A stretch of 32,141 nucleotides of DNA from Verrucomicrobia bacterium Opi.OSU.00C. GTDB taxonomy: Bacteria; Verrucomicrobiota; Verrucomicrobiia; Opitutales; PNEW01. The stretch covers positions 1 through 32,141 of the forward strand of contig PNEW01000015.1 of the NCBI GenBank assembly GCA_002922725.1, given 5' to 3'. Position 1 is the stretch's first letter. Every line of letters starts with the position of its first letter. The notes below the pieces were generated by a model. The model did not search any database and was not told the origin of the DNA. It saw only the letters and a list, made by a program, of their open reading frames with translations. The translations under genes and the position numbers were made by a program. Shown one piece after another: positions 3,021-29,257 of the stretch.

Positions 3021-3806
3021 TTAAAAATCAGGGACCCTTAATTCTTGTCCCACTCTGATTGAATGTGGGTTGGGAAGTACATCCCTATTTGCATCAAAAA
3101 TATCCCGCCATCGACCAGGCGTTTTGTAGAGTTTTATACTAATTCGGCTTAGTGTATCTCCAGATTGGACTACATAAGTTTCAGGACGTATTGGGGTATT
3201 AATAGCCACAGTTTGTTCAGCTGGATATGTCTCCTGGGGCGAAATATCTTTAATTACCTCAGGTAAAGGCTTCGTATGCGTAGTAATATGGTGCTGTAAA
3301 ACATTCAATTCATTTTTTGATTTTTCAAATTGTTGAATAGATCCAGCTAGATTTTTTTTAAGTTTTAAATTTTCAATTTTTAGCTGTTCAATTATATTCA
3401 TTAAATCAAGCCTTTCAAACTCTTCCTTAAAAGGTTGCCCCGGTAAGCTTCTTACAAAGTCTTTTTGAGCTGTTTCAATAAGTTGCCGCACAAGCTTCGA
3501 TTGTTTAGCATTTGGCTTTAGTTCAAGGTATTTACGAAAATGATAGATAGCAGCAATAGGATCTTTAATATGGGTGAGGCTTAGACGCCCTATTTCTAAA
3601 TGTGATTCTGCTGCATCATTGCGTTTATTCACAACCTTTAGAAACGCTTCAAGAGCTTCCTGTTTTCTTCCTTCCCGAAGTAGGCTCTTACCCCTGAGGT
3701 AATGCTTTTCTTCAACTTCTGATATGACTTCAATTTGTTGGTTAGAACAACTATTCAATATCGCGAGTAAAAGTAAGACAAAAATATTTATGAAATATGG
3801 AGGCAT
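3021..3806 (-). CDS. LysM-domain lipoprotein with TPR-like and coiled-coil regions
   Basis: Predicted envelope lipoprotein of 261 residues. The N-terminus is a hydrophobic signal ending in LNSC, a lipobox with Cys20 as the lipid-bearing residue. A helical TPR-like region follows (GRKQEALEAFLKVV, DPIAAIYHFRKYLEL), then a lysine-rich heptad stretch (LMNIIEQLKIENLKLKKNLA) that looks like a coiled coil. A Pro/Thr-rich linker leads to one C-terminal LysM domain (YVVQSGDTLSRI to VGQELRVPDF), which typically binds peptidoglycan. The ATG at 3806 is preferred over an upstream in-frame TTG at 3815. The design suggests a peptidoglycan-anchored scaffold in the periplasm or outer membrane, and no specific partner can be named. 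The T8 run at 3352-3359 does not break the frame. Confidence 0.85.
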   Translation of the reverse strand: MPPYFINIFVLLLLAILNSCSNQQIEVISEVEEKHYLRGKSLLREGRKQEALEAFLKVVNKRNDAAESHLEIGRLSLTHIKDPIAAIYHFRKYLELKPNAKQSKLVRQLIETAQKDFVRSLPGQPFKEEFERLDLMNIIEQLKIENLKLKKNLAGSIQQFEKSKNELNVLQHHITTHTKPLPEVIKDISPQETYPAEQTVAINTPIRPETYVVQSGDTLSRISIKLYKTPGRWRDIFDANRDVLPNPHSIRVGQELRVPDF

Positions 3807-14102: not shown

Positions 14103-14939
14103 TTAATCGACTACAAAGCTAATACACCCAAGTTTAACAAAATCAGCTACATATTTACCAGGTCTTGCTGGTAAAATATTCCCCATTGAGCCAGTCAATA
14201 AAACATGTCCTGGTTCTAGGGTCCATCCTTGATTAACAGTATTATTAACAAGCCATAGAGCAGCCTCCCATGGATCCCCAAGAACATCACTACCAGAACC
14301 TTGACTTACAAGCTCTTCCTCTTTCCACAAGAAAAATAATATTTTTTTCAAGTCATATTCGATATGACTCCTATGCCTACCTATAATACATCCATAGGCA
14401 GAAACATTATTGGCAATTACGTCTACTCCTTTTATTTCTGAAATTTTTTCAAAGGTAAGATTGGTTATTTCAATAGCAGGAACTACTGCTTTGATTCTTT
14501 TTTTTAAAATCTCAATTTGGCTAATTGGTTTATTAATCTGTTCTCCTATAATAAAGCCTATTTCAACTTCAAGCATAAGCTTTTCATCCAAATCGAGTTT
14601 AATACTCGTCTCAGTTTTTCTATTACCAGAGCCAAAAAGTACACCTGATACGGGATTATTTATCTTAAGTCGTTTCTGTATATTTACGTTAGTAAGACCT
14701 GCCTTAAACCCCATTATTTGTTCATCTAATAATCTGAGTTTAACATAAGACTTTTGCACCCTGTATGCTGATATTTCTGTTAAAGCAGGATTCATTACAG
14801 AAAGTATTGGTAAAGGCCTCTTATTTAAATGAGCTTCATAAATTCTCATTGCCATAGATTCAATATTCGTAGTCCCATGTCCTTGAAGTTTAAGAGAAAA
14901 GACAACAAATGTAATTATGGCTAAATCTTTAAATCTCAT
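14103..14939 (-). CDS. 2-keto-4-pentenoate hydratase-like protein (FAH superfamily) with an N-terminal signal
   Basis: 278 residues resembling MhpD/2-oxopent-4-enoate hydratase or decarboxylase of the fumarylacetoacetate hydrolase superfamily. The metal ligands of that family can be placed: E124 and E126 in LEVEIGFIIGE and E157 in VPAIEITN. Other matches are GFKAGLT, the ANNVSAYGCIIGR block and GSDVLGDPWEAALWLVNN. Unusually, it begins with a basic residue and a hydrophobic run (FKDLAIITFVVFSLKLQGHG) that looks like a signal peptide, suggesting export, whereas known relatives are cytoplasmic. It starts 6 bases after the transporter gene, with a good Shine-Dalgarno (GAGGAA), so the two form an operon. 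The T8 run at 14508-14515 leaves the frame intact. Confidence 0.8.
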   Translation of the reverse strand: MRFKDLAIITFVVFSLKLQGHGTTNIESMAMRIYEAHLNKRPLPILSVMNPALTEISAYRVQKSYVKLRLLDEQIMGFKAGLTNVNIQKRLKINNPVSGVLFGSGNRKTETSIKLDLDEKLMLEVEIGFIIGEQINKPISQIEILKKRIKAVVPAIEITNLTFEKISEIKGVDVIANNVSAYGCIIGRHRSHIEYDLKKILFFLWKEEELVSQGSGSDVLGDPWEAALWLVNNTVNQGWTLEPGHVLLTGSMGNILPARPGKYVADFVKLGCISFVVD

Positions 14940-14945
14940 ATTTCC

Positions 14946-17543
14946 TCAATCGTTGCTTTCTTTAGGAAGGGTAAATATAGTAAACCCATCAGCTAGGTTT
15001 TTATTACCACCTGTAGCTACACTCGCCAAGTACCCAACTACGATACAGGTTCCTGAGCTAACTAGCCCATAGATAAAAAAATGTAAAGGCGTATATCTTT
15101 GTATGAAGAATATGGCTATAGCACTTGCAATGATCCCTATGCATGTTCCAATTCCATTAGCTCTATTCGTAAACATTCCAAGCCAAAATACTCCGATTAG
15201 AGAACCCCCAAATAGACCATGATAAATACTCATCAGATCGATTAATGATGGAATATTGGTCGTCGTAAATATAAATGCCATTGCCGTACCAAATACACCA
15301 AAAATAATGGTTAACCAACGTGCCAATTTTAGTCCTTCATGGTCAGTAATGGTTTCCTTAAACCTCCGATAGTCTATGACAATACTTGTTGCGAGACTGT
15401 TCATGCTACTATCCATACTCGACATTGAAGCAGAAAAAATCGCCGCTATAATAAACCCAGATATTCCGATTGGTAAATTTTGGACTACAAACCAGGGAAC
15501 GATGCCATCAGTAATAAGAACTGGATTTAGTTCTTCTGGTCGAGCATGATAGTAAGCAAATATTGCAGAACCTATATAAAAAAAAAGGAAAGAGGCAGGA
15601 AGAGATATTATCGCTCCAATGGCTAAAGCTTTACGGGCTGATTTTTCATCCTTTGTTGTTAGCCAACGTTGAACTTCAACTTGATCTCCGGAAGCAGTGG
15701 GGATAACCATCGATGTAAAACTCGCTAAAATAATTACAAACAGCGATGAAGTTCGCACATCCCAACCTTTATTTACCCAATTGAAATTATTTTGGGTGCT
15801 GCATATTTCAATAAATTGAGAAATTCCATCATCAAGGCTTAAAACTGTTATTATAAGAATTATAAAAGCACCGGCATAGAAAACAATCACTTGCAATACG
15901 TCAGTCCAAATAACTGCTTCAATTCCACCCAACACAGTATAAACTGTGCAGAGTAGTCCCATCGAAAGAATACAAAAATAAACATTGAGTCCTGTTGCAG
16001 CTGAAAGTGCAATCGCTGGTAGATAAAGAACTATCCCCATTCGACCCAACTGTACGATAATAAATGTAAGGCTACCAAAAAGTCTCACTAATATATTAAA
16101 TCGCATTTCTAAATATTCATAAGTCGTGGTAACAAATAAACGACGGAAAAAAGGAAGCAGTAGATACATCTGTACGATAATCACGATCGGTAAAGACAAA
16201 CGAAGGAGAAAGTAAACCCAATCCGTAGAATATACCTTGGCCGGCGTACTAATATAAGTAGCTGCACTTAAACCCGTACCAATTATACTTAACCCCACTG
16301 CCCACCAAGGCACTTGTCGCCCCCCAAGAAAATAGTCTTGTGTTGTTTTTTCCTTCTTAGAAAAATAGACTCCCAAAACAACTAAGCCGAGGAAATAGGC
16401 TATAAGGAATGAATAATCAATAACTCCAAAACGACTTTTCTTCAATATTGTTCTCGCTTTAAAAAGTCCTCCAACTGAATCATTCATACTTAGTAAATAA
16501 ATATCATCACCCGACAAAATTACTTCTCCAGCTGAAATATTAGCTGGTAAGTTATCCATTTTAACCCACGTATTGGTGAAGGTGTGATAAGCTAACACTT
16601 CAGAACGAAAACTGTTTACTTTCGGTGAAAAAGAATTTAGAAAATGGTCTCTTTCACCATCATAACCACCATACATTAGTATATGGGATTGGCCTACTTT
16701 ACTACCATTAGCGCCAAAGATAGGCCAGGGTGAATCCGAAATCTTGTCCCATCGGGATTGTACATCAGCACTAGGATTATAGCGATATCCGTCAATCAAT
16801 TCTTTTATAATTGGCGGATGTTTTTCTATATTTGTAATCCCCAAACCGCTTGTAAGGTACAAATTTTCATAAAAACCATCATGCTGTACCGTTGCTACTG
16901 CATGCATACGCGCTGGTCCTGGCCAAGTTTCTAAAATTTCCCATCTATTATCTTTTGAGGATAGATCTAATGACCAAAAATTATTTAATGCTTGAGGATT
17001 CCTTAGTGAATCTATTCCTCCTGCAACAAATACTGACCCGCTAATAATAGCCGCTGCTGAATAGGATCTAGGACCAGGAAGAGACGGAAATTCTTGTTTA
17101 TCAATCTTTTTATTAACTGGATCCCAAGTTAAAAGAAACACGTCAGAATAAGACTTTTTTTCATCTCGTCCTCCAATACAGAGAAGTCCTTTATCGAAAG
17201 GTACTGTAGCTCCATAAGCTAAAGGGTATTCAAGTTTGAAACTAGAATAAATATTATATTTCGAATCTGCATTTCTTTCGAGAACGATGATGCTAGTTTG
17301 TATTAACTCTCCTTCGACCCCACCCGCAATAATAAGTGCTCCATTACTCTCTCCTGAAAAGGCCCCCGCCTTAACAGCCATACTTGACAGCTCACCTAAA
17401 TCAGTCCATTGGTGAACCTCTTCTTCTGAGCTTTTTAATTCAAATTCAGCGCCAGACAACAAGATATTGCTGATTATTAAAAGACAAAATAATGGTAATC
17501 TTTTTTGTATGATCGGTATGGACGTTAAATTTAAGATCAGCAA
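14946..17543 (-). CDS. Kelch/mutarotase-like domain fused to a sodium:solute symporter (SSS family)
   Basis: 865-residue two-part protein. After a signal-like hydrophobic N-terminus, residues about 30-370 form a Kelch-type beta-propeller with repeated GG turns (LIIAGGVEGEL, LLCIGGRDEKKS, VFVAGGIDSLRN, ILMYGGYDGERD), like NanM-type or cyclically permuted mutarotases. From about 380 to the end it is an SSS-family sodium symporter of about 13 membrane helices, including SKKEKTTQDYFLGGRQVPWW, GLSAATYISTPAKVY and FSASMSSMDSSMNSLATSIV. Such fusions are known in Planctomycetota, Verrucomicrobiota and Bacteroidota and are linked to uptake of sialic acid or sugar acids. The start is a TTG directly after a stop codon, with GAGG upstream. 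The hydratase-like gene follows 6 bases downstream. Confidence 0.88.
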   Translation of the reverse strand: MLILNLTSIPIIQKRLPLFCLLIISNILLSGAEFELKSSEEEVHQWTDLGELSSMAVKAGAFSGESNGALIIAGGVEGELIQTSIIVLERNADSKYNIYSSFKLEYPLAYGATVPFDKGLLCIGGRDEKKSYSDVFLLTWDPVNKKIDKQEFPSLPGPRSYSAAAIISGSVFVAGGIDSLRNPQALNNFWSLDLSSKDNRWEILETWPGPARMHAVATVQHDGFYENLYLTSGLGITNIEKHPPIIKELIDGYRYNPSADVQSRWDKISDSPWPIFGANGSKVGQSHILMYGGYDGERDHFLNSFSPKVNSFRSEVLAYHTFTNTWVKMDNLPANISAGEVILSGDDIYLLSMNDSVGGLFKARTILKKSRFGVIDYSFLIAYFLGLVVLGVYFSKKEKTTQDYFLGGRQVPWWAVGLSIIGTGLSAATYISTPAKVYSTDWVYFLLRLSLPIVIIVQMYLLLPFFRRLFVTTTYEYLEMRFNILVRLFGSLTFIIVQLGRMGIVLYLPAIALSAATGLNVYFCILSMGLLCTVYTVLGGIEAVIWTDVLQVIVFYAGAFIILIITVLSLDDGISQFIEICSTQNNFNWVNKGWDVRTSSLFVIILASFTSMVIPTASGDQVEVQRWLTTKDEKSARKALAIGAIISLPASFLFFYIGSAIFAYYHARPEELNPVLITDGIVPWFVVQNLPIGISGFIIAAIFSASMSSMDSSMNSLATSIVIDYRRFKETITDHEGLKLARWLTIIFGVFGTAMAFIFTTTNIPSLIDLMSIYHGLFGGSLIGVFWLGMFTNRANGIGTCIGIIASAIAIFFIQRYTPLHFFIYGLVSSGTCIVVGYLASVATGGNKNLADGFTIFTLPKESND

Positions 17544-19366: not shown

Positions 19367-20020
19367 ATGGCTAATATATTCCCCAAGTGGTCCAACAGTA
19401 TTCCTAAACAGATTATTATTGCAGCAGCGCTTATTACTATAGCCTTAACGCTTGGTGCTACTTATTACGCTACCCCAAAATATTTACGTGTGGGATATCA
19501 ACCGATTCAACCTGTTGCCTTTGATCACAGTTTGCATATAGATCAATTAGGGATGGATTGTCGGTATTGTCATACTTTCGTTGATCGATCTGAACATTCT
19601 AATATCCCTGATTCTGCAACTTGTATGAATTGTCATAATCAGATAAAACGAGATAGTCCTGCTCTTGCACCCATCCGTGAAAGCTGGTCAACAGGCAAAC
19701 CTGTCCCCTGGGTGCGTATCCATAAAACACCTGATTATGTATTCTTTAATCATGCCGTTCATGTAAATCGTGGCATTAGCTGTCTTGAGTGTCATGGGAA
19801 AGTCGATGAAATGGAGGTCGTTTACCACGCTAAATCGCACAGTATGAAATTTTGTCTAGAGTGCCATCGTAACCCAGAAGCATACATCCGTCCAGTGGAT
19901 AAAGTCTTTGACCTTGACTGGATGCCTGATAGTGAAGAACAACAATTAATAATGGGAAAAGAAATGGTTCATAATTGGAAAGTTAACCCACCCCAAAGCT
20001 GTTCTGGATGTCATCGATGA
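19367..20020 (+). CDS. actA: Alternative complex III subunit ActA, pentaheme cytochrome c
   Basis: Membrane-anchored multiheme cytochrome c of the quinol:electron-acceptor oxidoreductase ACIII. The 217 residues have one N-terminal membrane helix (about 15-35), then a periplasmic part with five CxxCH motifs at 65, 86, 139, 163 and 212, matching the pentaheme ActA of Rhodothermus and Flavobacterium. Additional His residues (FDHSLHID, FFNHAVHVN, YHAKSHSM) suit distal heme ligands. It passes electrons from the complex to the next carrier. Its TGA overlaps the actB ATG (ATGA at 20017-20020), indicating translational coupling. The gene is intact. Confidence 0.95.
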   Translation: MANIFPKWSNSIPKQIIIAAALITIALTLGATYYATPKYLRVGYQPIQPVAFDHSLHIDQLGMDCRYCHTFVDRSEHSNIPDSATCMNCHNQIKRDSPALAPIRESWSTGKPVPWVRIHKTPDYVFFNHAVHVNRGISCLECHGKVDEMEVVYHAKSHSMKFCLECHRNPEAYIRPVDKVFDLDWMPDSEEQQLIMGKEMVHNWKVNPPQSCSGCHR

Positions 20021-23000
20021 AATCTAAAGTAATAGAACCAAAGTTAGTTAATGAAGAGATTACTGGACCACGCTACTGGCGTAGTTTAGACGAATTAATA
20101 GAAAACCCAGAATTTAAAAACTTTATAGAAAAAGAGTTTCCCCTAGGCGCCTCAGAACTAGCCGGTGTAAACCGCAGACATTTCATAAAGATCATGGCTG
20201 CCTCATTTGCTGCAGCAGGTATGGGTATGGCTGGATGTCGACGACCTATTCAACATATTTTGCCTTACTCAAAACAACCAGAAAATGTCATTCCTGGGGT
20301 TCCTGTATACTATGCTTCGTCACATCCTTCTGCAAAAGATAATCAACCAATATTGGTTGAAACACACCAACATCGCCCCTCTAAAATCGAAGGGAACTCG
20401 AAATACTCCCCTTATGGGGGGACGACTGATATCTTCACTCAAGCAAGTATTTTAGACCTTTATGACCCAGATCGTTCGACTAAAAGTAGTAAAGGAACGC
20501 AAAGTATCAGCCAAGGCATGGTATACGATTTATTACAAAACATCCATGCTAAGTTTTTATCTACGGAGGGACAGGGGCTTGCATTTCTTGCTGATCAATC
20601 CACTTCTCCAACTCGTGCCCGAATTGTAAAGGAAATCAAAAGGATTTTCCCTCGATCCACATGGGCTGAATATGAACCTGTCAATTTCGATAATCCAGAA
20701 ATTGCTGCCCGACGTCTATTTGGACGCCGCCTCCGACCTCAATATCATTTTACTAAAACTAAACGTATATTATCACTCGATGCTGATTTTCTAAATATTG
20801 AGCCTGGTAAATTAGCAAACTCTCGTGATTTTGCCATTAAGCGCAGAGTAAAAAACAGCAAAGAAGCTACAAAAATGAATCGTTTATACCAGGTAGAAAG
20901 CAATTTCAGTGTGACCGGTGCCATGGCTGATCATAGACTTCGATTGTCAAGTGGACAAATTCCCGCATTTACCGCACTATTGGTAATTGAATTACTAAGG
21001 CAAAAAAGTATTCAATCTCCTCTATCAGAGGAATTGAAGAAAAAGGCGTCTAATCTAGATACAAACCCTCACTGGATCCAAGAGTGTGTTACAGACCTTC
21101 TCGCGCATCCTGGCAAATCTGTAGTCACGGCTGGTAGCCACCAACCAGTCGAAGTCCATGAATTAGTATATTTTATTAATGACTTATTGGATGCTAACGG
21201 ACATACAGTTACTTACCTTAACATTCCAAATTATAGTGCAAGTACAATCCAGGATTTGGGTGTAAATCTAGAGAATGGACGAATTGAAACGCTTATAATT
21301 ATAGGTGGCAACCCTGTTTATAATGCTCCACATGATTTAAATTGGTTGGAACTTCAAAAATCTGTCAATGAAGTCATTAGATATGGTTACTTCTTTGATG
21401 AAACATCTATAGAAGCAACGTATCATATTTCAGCTACTCATTATCTTGAATCATGGAGTGATGGGCGGACCTTTGATGGTACAATTGTACCTGTACAGCC
21501 GATGATTCGTCCTCTTTTTGAAGGAATGCAAGAACTAGAACTACTGGCACGGCTAGCCGGTATAAAGAAAGCTGACCCCTATACTCTTGTTAAAAAAAAC
21601 AATTACTGATTTATCTGACGAGGTTGATGAAGAAAGAATTTTTGATCGATTTTTGAGCAATGGCTTTCTAAAAAACAGTAGCTTTACCAACACACCTGTC
21701 AGCGTCAATCAGAGTAGAATAAAACGAACAATTACTACTGGAAATTTCAGGCCTAGTAATATTTCAAGTGATCATCTTGAGGTACGTATAATTCCGAGTC
21801 CAAGGGTGTGGGATGGGTCTTATAATAATAATGGTTGGTTGCAAGAATGTCCCGAGGCGATGACCAAACTCACTTGGGATAATGCAATTTCTATTAGTCC
21901 TAGATTAGCTAAAGATATTGGATATAATCCAGAACAAAATTCCTTTAAGCAAGTTGCTTCAAAAAAAGCTGCGACCTTTAAAATGGGTCGTGAAGTTTCA
22001 CCTTTAGGAGAAATAAATATTGGTGAAACAACTATAAGAGGGCCCATACATATCCAACCTGGGTTGGCCAATTACACAGTTGTAGTTCCTCTAGGATATG
22101 GTCGTACAAAAGTCGGGCGAATTGGAAAAGGAACTGGTTTTACAGCCTATCCTTTAGTAAACAGCCGTTCATCTGGTTATATCCTTGGCGCTAATATACA
22201 TATTACAAATAGATCCTACATTTTAGCAAACACACAAGAACATTGGTCAATGGAAGGAAGAGCCATTGTTCGTGAAGCAAATTTAGAAGACTATGTAAAG
22301 CACCCCAACTTTGTTGATAAAATGGGATTGGAACCACACTCACCCCCAATATACGGGAATGACTCTAATCTAAGTTTACAGAAAAAAGTGACGACACAAC
22401 CTCGAGGAGCTTCAGCTTACGAGATCCCTCAATTTGGGGGAGATCACCAATGGGGTATGAGTATAGACCTTAATACTTGTACCGGTTGTAGCGCTTGTAT
22501 TGTCGCCTGTCAGAGTGAAAATAATATTCCAATTGTAGGTAAAGACCAGGTTACACGTGGTCGTGAAATGCATTGGTTAAGATTCGATCGGTATTACTCA
22601 AGTGGGGATGTTGAAAGTAATAAAAGTGATATACCTGAAGATCCTCAAGCAACCATACAGCCAGTTATGTGTATGCACTGCGAAATGGCACCTTGTGAGC
22701 AAGTGTGTCCTGTAAATGCTACCGTACATGATGATGAAGGCTTGAACGTAATGTCCTATAATCGCTGTGTTGGAACACGCTATTGCTCAAACAATTGTCC
22801 TTATAAAGTAAGAAGATTTAATTTCTTTGATTGGAATAAAAGAGAAATAGGTAGTTTCTATAAAGGTCCGATTGGACCTGGTGGTATGACCGAATTGGAG
22901 AAAATGCAAAAAAATCCTGATGTTTCTGTACGTATGCGTGGGGTAATGGAAAAATGCACTTATTGTCAGCAGCGTATCCAAGAAGCTAAAATAAATACGA

Positions 23001-23305
23001 AGGTAAAAGCCCGCGATTCAAATGATATAAAAGTTCCAGATGGAATGATTAAAACAGCTTGCCAACAGGTGTGTCCTACAGAATCCATTATATTTGGGGA
23101 TGTTAGCGATCCTGAAAGTAAAGTTTCGATGACGAAAACTTCTGATCGTGATTATTCTGTACTTGGGTACCTGAATACAAGACCACGTACTACTTATCTT
23201 GCACGATTGCGTAATCCCAATCCCCTTATGCCTGATTATAGAAATATGCCCCATAGTAGAATGGAGTATGAAAAACAGTTTGGCCATGGATCTCATGGAA
23301 CATGA
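20017..23305 (+). CDS. actB: Alternative complex III subunit ActB, molybdopterin-like plus Fe-S domains (one frameshift)
   Basis: Large periplasmic subunit, about 1,095 residues once the frame is repaired. The first part has a Tat-like signal (VNRRHFIKIMAASFAAAG) and a molybdopterin-oxidoreductase-like domain that in ACIII carries no cofactor. The second part has the four-cluster ferredoxin-like region: CTGCSACIVACQSEN, CMHCEMAPCEQVCPVNA, CVGTRYCSNNCPYKVRR, and CTYCQQRI with CQQVCPTES. The frame breaks at an A8 run (21592-21599): as read it stops at 21609, while seven A's give LVKKTITDLSDEVDEERIFD and an open frame to 23305. A separate second gene starting at the TTG at 21587 is unlikely, because it would begin inside the run and has no ribosome site. 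The start is the ATG overlapping the actA stop. Confidence 0.92.
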
Positions 23306-23390
23306 TGATCATAAAGCTAATTCTGAACAATTGAACGGCATAAATGATAAACAATATCACAAATAATAATATAAATCTTCACCTATCCCT

Positions 23391-24818
23391 ATGTCCTACA
23401 ACGAGGAAATGAATTCAACAGAAGCGGTGTTACTTAAAGAAGTGAACCCTAGTGATCTTCCTCGTCCTCCTTTAGTGAAAAATGATCATAGTTTTCACTG
23501 GATCACAGAAAAAATATGCAGAATTGTAGAAGATAAGACTCCCTTATGGTGGTGGATTTGTTTCTGTGTTGCAGGCTTTATTGCATCTTTTACAGGAATC
23601 GGGTTGGCTTATCTTTTATTCACAGGTGTAGGTGTTTGGGGACTGCGTGGACCTGTCATGTGGGGTTGGGCGATTGTCAACTTTGTATTTTGGATAGGTA
23701 TCGGACATGCGGGAACTCTTATCTCGGCAATTCTTTGTCTTCTAAAACAAGAATGGCGAACATCTATTAATAGAGCGGCGGAAGCAATGACGATTTTTGC
23801 TGTTATGTGTGCAGGGATATTTCCATTATTTCATGTTGGGAGAATCTGGTTTGCTTGGTGGCTCTTTCCATTACCCAATGCAAATGGAATTTGGCCCAAC
23901 TTTCGTAGTCCTCTTGAGTGGGATGTTTTTGCCGTATCTACATATGCCACTGTATCTGTGTTATTCTGGTTTATGGGTATGATACCTGATCTAGCCACCT
24001 TACGTGATCGAGCGACACAGAAATGGAGACAAATTTTCTATGGGATTTTAGCTATGGGCTGGCGTGGATCTAATCGACATTGGAGTAATTACGAAATGGC
24101 ATATCTCCTTTTGGCTGGATTAAGTACACCCCTTGTATTATCAGTTCACACAATTGTATCTTTTGATTTTGCGGTCGCTCATTTACCAGGCTGGCATACC
24201 ACTATCCTACCTCCTTATTTTGTTGCAGGAGCAATTTTTTTTCCGGTTTCGGAATGGTTTTAACAATAATTCTCCCTTTAAGAGCGATCTATAAATTACA
24301 TGATTTAATTACACAGCACCATATCGATTGTATCTGTAAAATCACACTAGCCACAGGAAGTATGGTTGGTTATGCTTACATGATAGAATTCTTCATTGCT
24401 TGGTATGGAGCAAATCCTTATGAAGGATTCACTTTTATTAACCGGGCATTTGGACCATACGCCTGGGCTTACTGGATTATGATAAGTTGCAATGTCATTT
24501 CCCCACAACTTTTTTGGTTTAAAAGAGTACGCGAAAATCCAGCCTTTGTTTTTTATAGTTGCTATATTTGTAAATATTGGAATGTGGTTTGAGCGATTTG
24601 TCATTGTTGTCACTTCATTGGCTAATGAATTCATGCCAGCCAACTGGGATTATTTTACCCCCACTATTGTCGATATATTTACCTTTATTGGTACTTTCGG
24701 TTTTTTCTCCGTTCTTTTCCTATTATTTTTACGGTTTTTACCCCTTATGGCTTTTTCAGAAATTAAAGCTGTTACACCCCAAGCTAATCCTCACAATGAC
24801 AACCAAAATTCAATTTAG
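23391..24818 (+). CDS. actC: Alternative complex III subunit ActC, NrfD-like quinol-binding membrane protein (two frameshifts)
   Basis: Polytopic NrfD/PsrC-family subunit that holds the quinol site of ACIII, about 474 residues when repaired. Conserved stretches include [53 protein letters not shown] and [18 protein letters not shown]. The frame is lost at a T8 run (24235-24242), where the expected next residues [19 protein letters not shown] are in another frame, reachable by removing two T's or adding one. It is lost again at a T6 run (24549-24554), where five T's give [20 protein letters not shown] and a return to the original frame up to 24818. As read, translation stops at 24263. actB ends 85 bases upstream, and actD starts 3 bases after the stop. 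Confidence 0.9.
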
Positions 24819-24821
24819 TTT

Positions 24822-25357
24822 ATGGCAAAACCTCTATATGGTCAAGTAGCCCTTTTTTGATACTGCAGCGGATATTTACCATGCAGCAGAAAAGGTTCGT
24901 GATGCTGGTTTCAAAAAAATGGGATGTCTATACGCCATTTCCTATTCATGGCATGGACGAAGCAATGGGGTTGAAGCGTTCAAAAGTTACATTTTTCTGT
25001 CTGATAGGTGGTGTAAGCGGTTTCTTTATTGGGATGCTCATGGTATGGTTTATGAACGGGTTTGATTACCCTTTAATTGTAGGTGCCAAACCCTATTTCA
25101 GTCCAATCTATCCTTTTCCTGTTATATATGAAATGACCATTCTCCTCGCAGCGTTTGGCGCTTTTTTTGGAATGTTCCTTTCAAACTCTTTACCCCAACA
25201 TTATCATCCAATAATGAATTATCGTAAATTTAGTCGAGTGACAGATGATAAATTTATCATTGTTATTGAATCAAATGACAGGCTTTATCATGAAATAAAA
25301 ACTAAATCTTTTCTTGAAGAAATTGGAGGAAAAGAAATAACCATTTTGGAAGAATAA
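24822..25357 (+). CDS. actD: Alternative complex III subunit ActD, DUF3341 membrane protein (two frameshifts)
   Basis: Small ACIII subunit with two membrane helices, about 177 residues when repaired. It opens with MAKPLYGQVALF and meets a TGA at 24858-24860 caused by a T6 run (24853-24858); five T's continue as DTAADIYHAAEKVRDAGF. A second run, A7 at 24913-24919, needs six A's to read FKKWDVYTPFPIHGMDEAMG, after which the frame is open to 25357. The remainder has the helices GGVSGFFIGMLMVWFMNGF and EMTILLAAFGAFFGMFL around a short periplasmic loop. Its TAA is directly followed by the actE ATG. As read, the only uninterrupted part begins at a non-native TTG at 24857. Confidence 0.9.
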
Positions 25358-25966
25358 ATGCGCTATTTTATTTTTATTTTCATTTTCATTATTGTAGCGA
25401 CTGTCTCAATTATGGGGTTTCGTGGGTCAAAATCGTTAAAACCTCCTCTTGAGGTATTCCCTGATATGGATCGCATGGGCAAATATAAACCACAAGCAGA
25501 GAATACTTTTTATGTTGATGGTATGGCCGACCGTCCCGCTGTCCCGGGTACGGTAGCTGCAGGCTCTTTTAATGAAGATCATTATTTTTCAACAGGTAAA
25601 ATTAATAATCAATGGGGAAAAGGCTTCCCTGTTAAGGTAAACCATAAATTGATTCAACTGGGAGAGGAAAAGTTTAATATACACTGCAGTGTTTGCCATG
25701 GTCTATCGGGTGATGGCAATGGTATCACCAAAACCTATGGTATGATCGCAACGCCCACTTATCATAGTAATCGCTTACGTAGCATGCCCGAAGGGGAAAT
25801 ATTCAATACCATTACCCATGGTAAGAATACAATGGGAGCTTATGGTGTTAAATTAAGACTACAAGAACGTTGGGCAATTATTGCCTATATGCGTACTCTA
25901 CAAAAATCACAGAATGCCAGACTAGAGGACGTACCACTAGATATGCGAAAAGTATTTCTCCAATGA
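25358..25966 (+). CDS. actE: Alternative complex III subunit ActE, mono-heme cytochrome c
   Basis: Membrane-anchored mono-heme cytochrome c of ACIII, 202 residues and intact. A hydrophobic N-terminus (about 3-20) anchors it. The family's proline-rich lead-in (LEVFPDMDRMGKYKPQ) and the ADRPAVPGTVAAGS segment precede a single CSVCH heme motif at 110-114, followed by GLSGDGNG. A methionine in RSMPEGEI is a candidate axial ligand. It receives electrons through ActA/ActB and can pass them to the oxidase. The start abuts the actD stop, and the stop overlaps the actF start (ATGA at 25963-25966), so the unit is translationally coupled. Confidence 0.95.
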   Translation: MRYFIFIFIFIIVATVSIMGFRGSKSLKPPLEVFPDMDRMGKYKPQAENTFYVDGMADRPAVPGTVAAGSFNEDHYFSTGKINNQWGKGFPVKVNHKLIQLGEEKFNIHCSVCHGLSGDGNGITKTYGMIATPTYHSNRLRSMPEGEIFNTITHGKNTMGAYGVKLRLQERWAIIAYMRTLQKSQNARLEDVPLDMRKVFLQ

Positions 25967-27251
25967 GCACCAAAACTATAGGTTCCAGCAATAAAACTAT
26001 GGTCCAAATAAAAAGACATAGTAATAAATCTACTTATGCTTTAATTATTGGCCTCATCGGACTTGCTATTTCGATAATCGGTTTATTTAAGGGCTTAAGT
26101 CAATCTGACCCTAGACCTCTACTAGGATGGTTAATAGGTTTTAGTTTCTGGTTCTCTATTTTGATAGGTAGCCTTTATTTTATAATGCTTTTTTATCTAT
26201 TTGATTCTGGTTGGTCTGTAATTGTTCGTAGACAGTTTGAACATGCCGTGTCAGGGTTAAAGTGGATCGCATTAATATTTTCTCCCTTATTAATCATCAG
26301 CTTATTTTACGATAAAGATCCTGGAATTCTTTGGGGTTGGTTGAATGAAGAAAAATTGCTTAAAAGTACTGAAGGTCATGGAGTCGATGTATTATACCAG
26401 GCTAAATCTCCCTACCTTAGTTCTAAATTTTTTATCATTCGGAGTGTATTTTTCTTTTTTATCTGGATTATATTGGCTGAAGTATTCCGTAATGTTTCTT
26501 TTTCCATGGATCGAGATGGCAATTTAAAGCATATTCGCCGTGGTAGAGTTTTTGCTTCTATTGGTGTAATAGTTACATCATTATCACTAACTTTCGCTTC
26601 TATCGATTGGTTAAAATCACTTGATTATCATTGGTTTTCTACAATGTATGGTGTATGGTTTTTCACATCTTCGATTCTGGCATCTTTAGCAACAATTGTT
26701 ATTGTTTGTTATCTATTTCAAAAACAGGGCCAATCCGGGAAAATATTCAATAACGCTCATTTTTATTACCTCGGTTGTTTGATGCTCGCCTTTACAATTT
26801 TTGGGCCTATATAAGTTTCTCACAATATTTTCTTGTTTATAACGCAAATATACCTGAGGAAACATTTTGGTACAATATACGGGAAATCAATTCTGATGGC
26901 ACTAAAAACTCATGGTGGTGGGTAAGTCTTGGGTTATTATTTTTTCATTTCTTTTTCCCTTTTTTGTGGCTCCTTTGGTATAAGAACAAATTTGGGCTAC
27001 GTATAGTCTTCATTTCTGCTTGGATATTAATCGTACACTTACTCGACCTATATTGGAATATACTTCCAAGTAAAATTCATTTGCCCACTGGTGATGTCAT
27101 ACGCCAATTTAATATTTCTTTCTGGGATATCAGTATGATTTTGGGGACAGGTGGTATTTGTCTTTGGGCTTATTTGAGAAGTATGGAAAAGCATAAATCC
27201 ATTCCGCTTCGTGACCCTCGCATACTTGAATCAATTAATGCCCATGAATAA
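25963..27251 (+). CDS. actF: Alternative complex III subunit ActF, second NrfD-like membrane protein (one frameshift)
   Basis: Polytopic subunit of ACIII, paralogous to ActC and proposed in the literature to take part in proton movement; about 429 residues when repaired. Conserved parts include WLIGFSFWFSILIGSLYFIM, SGWSVIVRRQFEHAVSGL, and after the break NANIPEETFWYNIRE, WWWVSLGLLFFHFFFPFLWL and LLDLYWNILPS. The frame is lost at a T5 run (26798-26802): six T's are needed to read AFTIFWAYISFSQYFLVY, so here a base is missing rather than added. As read it stops at 26814. The start is the ATG overlapping the actE stop, and the gene runs into the next small gene by 14 bases. Confidence 0.9.
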
Positions 27252-27603: not shown

Positions 27604-27606
27604 TTG

Positions 27607-27846
27607 ATGGATTGGTATTATTATATACTCACCGGTTTTGTTCTTGCAGGACTAATTTTCATTTCTGCAGTATACGCTTTCCATTGGGCATTAAAAAATG
27701 GTCAATTGAAAGACCTAGAAAAAGGCGCATCTAGCATTTTTGATGATGATGAACCTTTAGGTGAACAAACTGATTATTCCCTATCAAAAAGTAATTATAA
27801 CTTGCACACAACTACTGCAAATGAGTCCAGTAAATTTATCCAATAA
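27607..27846 (+). CDS. ccoS: cbb3-type oxidase maturation protein CcoS-like
   Basis: 79 residues with one N-terminal membrane helix (YYYILTGFVLAGLIFISAVY) followed directly by FHWALKNGQLKDLEKGAS and an acidic patch (FDDDEP). This is the typical CcoS/FixS pattern of WALKxGQxxDLE plus DDD. CcoS is needed for cofactor insertion into cbb3 oxidase. The tail after the acidic patch is longer than usual, is low in complexity, and overlaps the start of ccoN by 26 bases. The ATG at 27607 is preferred to the TTG at 27604. Placement before ccoN rather than after ccoI differs from the classical ccoGHIS arrangement, and no ccoG, ccoH or ccoI is present in the window. Confidence 0.83.
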   Translation: MDWYYYILTGFVLAGLIFISAVYAFHWALKNGQLKDLEKGASSIFDDDEPLGEQTDYSLSKSNYNLHTTTANESSKFIQ

Positions 27847-29257
27847 TAAGATCAAACTAAGTGAGGTTGATCAGTCGATGAAATGGGCAGGCTTACTTTT
27901 TATCATATCAGCTACACTTTGGCTATTAGCTGGAACTGCTCTCGGGATGATTTCATCTTACAAAATGCATAATTCAAATTTTTTGGCAAACTTGGAATGG
28001 CTAACATTTGGACGAATTAGATCTGCACATTTAAATGCAGTAATTTATGGCTGGTGTAATAATGCTATATTTGCGGTTGGTTTATGGATCATGGCAAGGC
28101 TTGCTAGAACTAAAGTTCGTCACCTAGGATTACTTATTATCGCTGGGATATTTTGGAATATCGCGGTAACAATAGGAATTATAGGCATATTAACTGGTCA
28201 TATGACATCTGTTGAATGGCTCGAGATTCCTACCTATATCACTCCCCTTTTGGCTATCTCTTATTGTTTAATTGGCGTCTGGGGCATTATCGTATTTCGC
28301 GACCGCCAATCAGAACATATTTATATCTCACAATGGTATATACTCGGTGCATTATTTTGGTTTCCCTGGATATACTCTGTTGCTCAAATAATGATATTAT
28401 TTGAACCTGCTAGAGGAACAGTTCAATCACTAACAAATTGGTGGTTTGCCCACAATTTTCTTGGCCTTTGGCTCACACCAATGGGCTTGGCTGCGGCATA
28501 TTATTTTATCCCAAAAGTCATAGGACGACCAATACATAGCTATTACCTTTCATTTCTTGGCTTTTGGACATTAGCTCTTTTTTATAGTTGGGCTGGAGTT
28601 CACCATTTAATCGGTGGACCTGTCCCAGCCTGGGCAGTATCTTTAGGAATAACAGCAAGTGTTATGATGGTAATTCCTGTATTAGTTGCTGCTATTAATC
28701 ACCATATGACCGTACTAGGTCATTTTAGAGAAGTTATTGAAAGTCCTACACTTCGATTTGTTGTTTTTGGAGCTTTGTCTTACACCCTCGTTAGTTTTAT
28801 AGGTTCGACAATGTCATTACGTTCCGTAAATGAAATATCACACTTTACCCATTTGACCGTTGGCCATGCACATCATGGGGTATATGCATTTTTTACAATG
28901 ATCATGTTTGGAAGTATTTACTTCATCTTACCCCGACTTATACATCGAGAATGGCCTTCTAAGATCTTAATAACATGCCATTTTTGGTTTGCCGCTTTAG
29001 GTATCACTATAATGATTGTTGCCTTGCATGTAGGTGGATGGCTTCAAGGACTTGCAATGAATAATCCTGAATTACTTTTTATTGATGTAATGAAAGGGAC
29101 TATACCTTGGTTAAAAGCAAGGACTGTATCCGGATTTTTTCTTGCAATTGCCCATATCGCTTTTGCGATTAATGTTTTTTGGATCGTCTTATCTGTTAAA
29201 AATAAGCCGGCTGTAATTGGAACTAAAGCCCTCTTTACTTCACCACACGCAAAGTAA
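27821..29257 (+). CDS. ccoN: cbb3-type cytochrome c oxidase subunit I (CcoN)
   Basis: Catalytic subunit of the high-affinity heme-copper oxidase that reduces O2, 478 residues and about 12 membrane helices. Ligands are visible: low-spin heme b His70 in SAHLNAVIYGW, CuB histidines in WWFAHNFLG and in the HH of FYSWAGVHHLIGGP, with the cross-linked tyrosine six residues before that pair, and the heme b3/heme b pair in VGHAHHGVYAF. The ATG at 27821, inside the end of ccoS, is preferred over a GTG at 27761. The gene is free of frameshifts although it directly follows the damaged act operon. It is followed by ccoO after 9 bases. Confidence 0.95.
   Translation: MSPVNLSNNKIKLSEVDQSMKWAGLLFIISATLWLLAGTALGMISSYKMHNSNFLANLEWLTFGRIRSAHLNAVIYGWCNNAIFAVGLWIMARLARTKVRHLGLLIIAGIFWNIAVTIGIIGILTGHMTSVEWLEIPTYITPLLAISYCLIGVWGIIVFRDRQSEHIYISQWYILGALFWFPWIYSVAQIMILFEPARGTVQSLTNWWFAHNFLGLWLTPMGLAAAYYFIPKVIGRPIHSYYLSFLGFWTLALFYSWAGVHHLIGGPVPAWAVSLGITASVMMVIPVLVAAINHHMTVLGHFREVIESPTLRFVVFGALSYTLVSFIGSTMSLRSVNEISHFTHLTVGHAHHGVYAFFTMIMFGSIYFILPRLIHREWPSKILITCHFWFAALGITIMIVALHVGGWLQGLAMNNPELLFIDVMKGTIPWLKARTVSGFFLAIAHIAFAINVFWIVLSVKNKPAVIGTKALFTSPHAK

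Follow-up and report, generated by a model that had tools for sequence, protein, structure and literature searches.

Six frame breaks in the alternative complex III operon of a Verrucomicrobia draft genome are probably errors of the assembly

Single-base frame breaks at homopolymer runs have been described both as sequencing errors and as true features of genomes. Reads of the 454 type contain more insertions (0.541%) than deletions (0.359%), according to PMC3116506. In Buchnera and Blochmannia, real indels can be rescued by transcriptional slippage or frameshifting, and rescue of this kind is known at homopolymer tracts; for Blochmannia, the source stresses single-indel genes, very AT-rich genomes and tracts at least nine bases long (PMC3017870). 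The alternative complex III (ACIII) operon of Opitutales, actABCDEF, has the same gene order and subunits as the locus described here.

In this study, frame breaks in an ACIII operon were investigated by comparison with the proteins of relatives. The operon lies in a window of 32,141 nucleotides (the whole stretch of DNA that was analysed), which spans contig 15 of a draft genome from end to end. We consider, with a probability of roughly nine in ten, that the six breaks of the operon are residual errors of the assembly and that ACIII is intact in the organism. The six breaks would stem from faulty base calls or assembly faults where homopolymers occur in a fragmented draft of the metagenome type, and the organism would carry an intact actABCDEF followed by a cbb3-type oxidase, like its relatives.

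The draft genome comprises 2,050,539 bases in 287 contigs, with 82.6% completeness, 3.2% contamination and a GC content of 35-44%. The window and 40 further stretches (703,616 bases in total) were sampled from the assembly, and 244 genes (225.5 kb) were aligned across them with relatives' proteins as reference. A purpose-written protein-to-DNA aligner that permits frame changes was used; for the window, 597 pairs were formed with open reading frames (ORFs) of relatives. Alignments with less than 35% identity or fewer than 60 residues were dropped, as were breaks whose flanking pieces scored below 60 or had less than 30% identity. The site at 24856 in actD and candidates on stretches L117, L119, L121 and L192 were left out of the 22 breaks counted below. 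In a protein search for ACIII, most of the best 80 of 242 loci were titled Opitutales, Opitutaceae or other Verrucomicrobia, and the titles of two among these 80 read Akkermansia; on this basis the host is assigned to Opitutales. The operon DNA was matched by 34 of the 51 genomes searched (own genome excluded), which are relatives at the level of the order and not of the same genus or family. It had one match in its own genome, and comparison with plasmid records by DNA gave four matches, all weak.

The ORFs and their protein families give the order actA, actB, actC, actD, actE and actF, then small ORFs, then a COX1-family oxidase subunit, as follows.

19367-20020, plus strand: actA, pentahaem cytochrome c subunit, intact; five CxxCH motifs, cytochrome c7/CIII families, no frame change
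20008-23305, plus strand: actB, one frame break; ORFs 20008-21609 and 21587-23305, Fer4 families in the second piece
23391-24818, plus strand: actC, NrfD-like membrane subunit, two breaks; NrfD PF03916 in the first piece
24822-25357, plus strand: actD, two breaks near the start; ActD PF11821, 182.8 bits, start codon from the sequence
25358-25966, plus strand: actE, monohaem cytochrome c subunit, intact; one CxxCH motif, cytochrome c families, no frame change
25963-27251, plus strand: actF, membrane subunit, one break; start codon from the sequence, alignment to a relative's ORF in the same gene order
27761-29257, plus strand: ccoN-type oxidase subunit I ORF, intact; COX1 PF00115, 239.8 bits

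By gene content, the operon is predicted to encode a quinol:cytochrome c oxidoreductase of the ACIII type. At the sequence level, the hallmarks of the complex are present, namely the pentahaem ActA, the Fe-S protein ActB (over two frames), ActD and the monohaem ActE, and the intact pieces retain haem motifs (ActA and ActE) and Fe-S cysteine motifs (ActB). As to the NrfD-like pair, the first piece of ActC matches PF03916, and neither piece of ActF has a Pfam match, the identity of actF resting on alignment to relatives. A small membrane ORF stands 5' of the oxidase, at 27604-27846 of the window, and we take it to resemble CcoS by its motif.

Six breaks were located in the operon, all on the plus strand, as follows.

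21592-21599, plus strand: A8 run, break in actB; frame change at 21593 in 71 of 72 alignments
24235-24242, plus strand: T8 run, first break in actC; frame change at 24239/24242 in 102 of 102 alignments
24549-24554, plus strand: T6 run, second break in actC; frame change at 24538-24571 in 101 of 101 alignments
24853-24858, plus strand: T6 run, first break in actD; frame change at 24856 in 44 of 79 alignments
24913-24919, plus strand: A7 run, second break in actD; frame change at 24914 in 79 of 79 alignments
26798-26802, plus strand: T5 run, break in actF; frame change at 26799 in 49 of 49 alignments

The initial annotation had placed six breaks at these very runs, and positions and alignments agree with it; the support is weaker at 24856 because about ten residues alone lie 5' of that site in actD. 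It had also described actA, actE and ccoN as intact, along with the two genes that follow ccoN, and zero frame changes were counted in these five on alignment. Conservation extends to both sides of the breaks, with 83% identity to the best relative in actC and 63% in actB. The window's best alignments are free of in-frame stops. Stop codons are listed in a minority of the wider alignments of the 597-pair run, and we infer that these come from relatives' ORFs on the opposite strand. Four long runs had further been reported to lie unbroken inside other genes of the window. Those at 3352 and 18350 are real; the sequence at 14508-14515 is AATCTCAA, which is no homopolymer, and the run at 15578 is A9, longer than the A8 or T8 claimed. 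An 865-residue ORF on the minus strand (window 14946-17543), in which a part resembling Kelch/N-acetylneuraminate epimerase is joined to a sodium:solute symporter, remains open through this A9 run.

The annotation had implied that breaks were peculiar to the ACIII operon, and this did not hold across the sampled assembly. In the 244 aligned genes, 22 frame changes passed the filter. The window held 5 of them, and the other 17 lay in 208.6 kb of coding sequence aligned on the remaining sampled contigs. For these contigs, longer runs were broken at a higher rate: 1 of 8418 runs at length 3, 3 of 2712 at 4, 3 of 855 at 5, 2 of 285 at 6, 2 of 96 at 7, 4 of 36 at 8, and at length 9, 2 of 6. Thus 4 of these 17 breaks sit at runs of 3 or 4. 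The nearest run was of T for 9 of the counted breaks, of A for 8, of C for 3 and of G for 2, and 15 of the 22 were +1 changes. This insertion-leaning and run-length-dependent pattern is consistent with flow-type chemistry. Stop codons were found in 4 of the 244 aligned genes and none of these was in the window. Of the 78 genes on other contigs that reached 60% identity or more, 3 had breaks. Grouped by contig, 3 breaks occurred in 86.9 kb (contigs 1-14), 9 in 67.7 kb (contigs 16-28) and 4 in 37.7 kb (contigs 29 and above), which gives a hint that the smaller contigs are worse in accuracy.

Breaks fall in genes whatever the need of the cell for them. The gene nrdA, encoding the large subunit of class I ribonucleotide reductase (RNR), carries two breaks on contig 27, and its pieces have 71% identity to a relative. 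It is the sole RNR large subunit found in the 82.6%-complete assembly, both PF02867 matches being its pieces, and no profile match to the class III NrdD was found in the assembly. On contig 20, rpsH (ribosomal protein S8) changes frame mid-gene, as judged from a single reference protein and away from any long run, and rpoC on the same contig is intact. The gene mutS is split near 57338 on contig 3, where its reading passes from one frame to another at an A6 run; the TAA reported within its match is the end of an open frame. The gene dnaE was unusable as a further test gene, the first 112 profile positions alone being found (contig 75). Both rpsH and RNR are essential, and breaks there would be lethal.

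The split mutS also bears on whether the lineage lacks working mismatch repair, with homopolymer slippage truly breaking many genes, ACIII included. No mutL match was found in this 82.6%-complete assembly; mutL is present in 23 of 25 relatives, including 22 of the 22 that are at least 90% complete, and the two relatives without a match are 80% and 50% complete. The climb of the break rate with run length would likewise suit such a mutator. However, mutL may sit in the missing 17% of the genome, the mutS break belongs to the very class of breaks that needs explanation, and the rpsH break and those in the only RNR found would kill the cell. We therefore regard a mutator as highly improbable. The fuller account, in which the mutS break and the mutL loss are real, mismatch repair is gone, slippage is eroding the genome and ACIII has just been disabled, with quinol oxidation falling to another route, for example a bd-like oxidase, is improbable to the same degree. 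Were the breaks real, Verrucomicrobiota would contain a free mutator lineage whose respiratory chain is collapsing. A true mutator with breaks in S8 and RNR could not live, and therefore those breaks at least are errors; the same cause then suffices for the others.

Control sequences were consistent with errors of this assembly. Across 206,392 aligned residues of the six act genes in relatives, 3 frameshifts were counted (109 loci, including some copies of one contig from two collections). A control set of four further Opitutales genomes (51 genes, 45,488 aligned bases) gave zero frameshifts that passed the filter, and 3 stops; one of these genomes (G008) had two shifts, both below the filter. 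About 3.8 breaks would be expected in the four genomes at the rate of 16 in 192.3 kb found in this genome outside the window, and the zero count is therefore supportive but not strong.

Uniform sequencing error had been held to explain the clustering in the operon poorly. With the break rates of the other contigs, 0.70 breaks would be expected in the stretch from actB to actF, which holds 6 (P 9e-5 without correction, for a region picked for its cluster and with rates built on 17 events). Per contig, 5 breaks were counted against 1.35 expected in the window, and 4 against 1.23 on contig 27. Across all sampled contigs, the spread weighted by run length was not significant (P 0.30; max-statistic P 0.38), nor was the overdispersion of contigs per aligned base (P 0.146 with the window and 0.116 without it). 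The clustering argument against error is thus weak, because no sampled contig stands out once run lengths are counted, and the excess of the operon alone over genome-wide rates makes some local loss of accuracy plausible in the window, as on contig 27. No cause peculiar to ACIII is required by the data.

The same excess of six breaks in 5.2 kb over the genome-wide prediction could be read as very recent decay: selection on ACIII would have ceased, and four genes would have been broken by slippage at their runs before further damage could accumulate. With rank 70 of 72 by mean distance, the second piece of ActB is one of the most divergent, a possible sign of relaxed selection. This divergence is ambiguous, because the lineage branches deeply and similarity to that very piece was the basis on which the relatives were selected. 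The other ranks are unremarkable (ActA 27 of 34, first piece of ActC 61 of 81, ActE 28 of 60, CcoN 17 of 45), ActA and ActE are intact with complete haem motifs, and the nonsense codons expected beside indels in a decaying operon are absent from the best alignments of the window. A bd-like oxidase gene on contig 10 (17102-17788; bd-family match of 81.8 bits) could bypass ACIII. The annotation had expected quinol oxidation by another route if ACIII was lost. No PF00033 match for a bc1-type cytochrome b to take over was found in the incomplete assembly, and actC is the only NrfD-family match in it. Like breaks in unrelated genes, rpsH and nrdA included, also weigh against decay, and we judge it very unlikely.

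The bd-like match on contig 10 (17102-17788) is a partial match to bd-oxidase subunit I within a 578-residue open frame. By eye from the translation, the neighbours of this frame are an ORF resembling a CuA-type oxidase subunit II and a cytochrome c-like ORF.

Error in the assembly remains the most likely explanation, since like breaks split genes that the cell could hardly live without, and we infer a technical cause instead of mutation. Besides the excess in the operon, the divergence of ActB and the small control coverage, two points run against error. Runs of T5 and T6 are short compared with those that errors commonly hit, though other short-run breaks exist, and the S8 break is seen against a single reference protein, with no long run at the site. 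The annotation had offered three kinds of explanation, and its reading holds in part. Of the three, a fault of the assembly has the strongest support, extended from a local one to errors that run through the sampled genome, depend on run length and hit basic genes, and decay or a slippage lineage is unlikely. Its suggestion of a non-functional ACIII finds no support. The finding is an ordinary one. It calls for caution, as automated annotation would label ACIII, RNR, S8 and mutS as broken in this draft genome, and a metabolic reconstruction from it would wrongly drop the respiratory chain.

The locus can be set beside the systems described above. Against the ACIII operon of other Opitutales, it differs in its four split genes, a condition confined to this assembly. 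In the insect endosymbionts, the frameshifted genes with slippage rescue are otherwise intact and broken at A or T tracts, as here (PMC3017870). However, the runs here are shorter (T5 to A8), several breaks fall in one gene (two each in actC, actD and nrdA), and the genome is larger and, as its GC content indicates, less AT-rich; real indels rescued in this manner are hardly credible. The 454-type homopolymer errors of draft genomes are single-base breaks that lean towards insertion and rise in rate with run length, as here. This last likeness is one of pattern, and the present genome differs in that some of its breaks sit at runs of 3 or 4.
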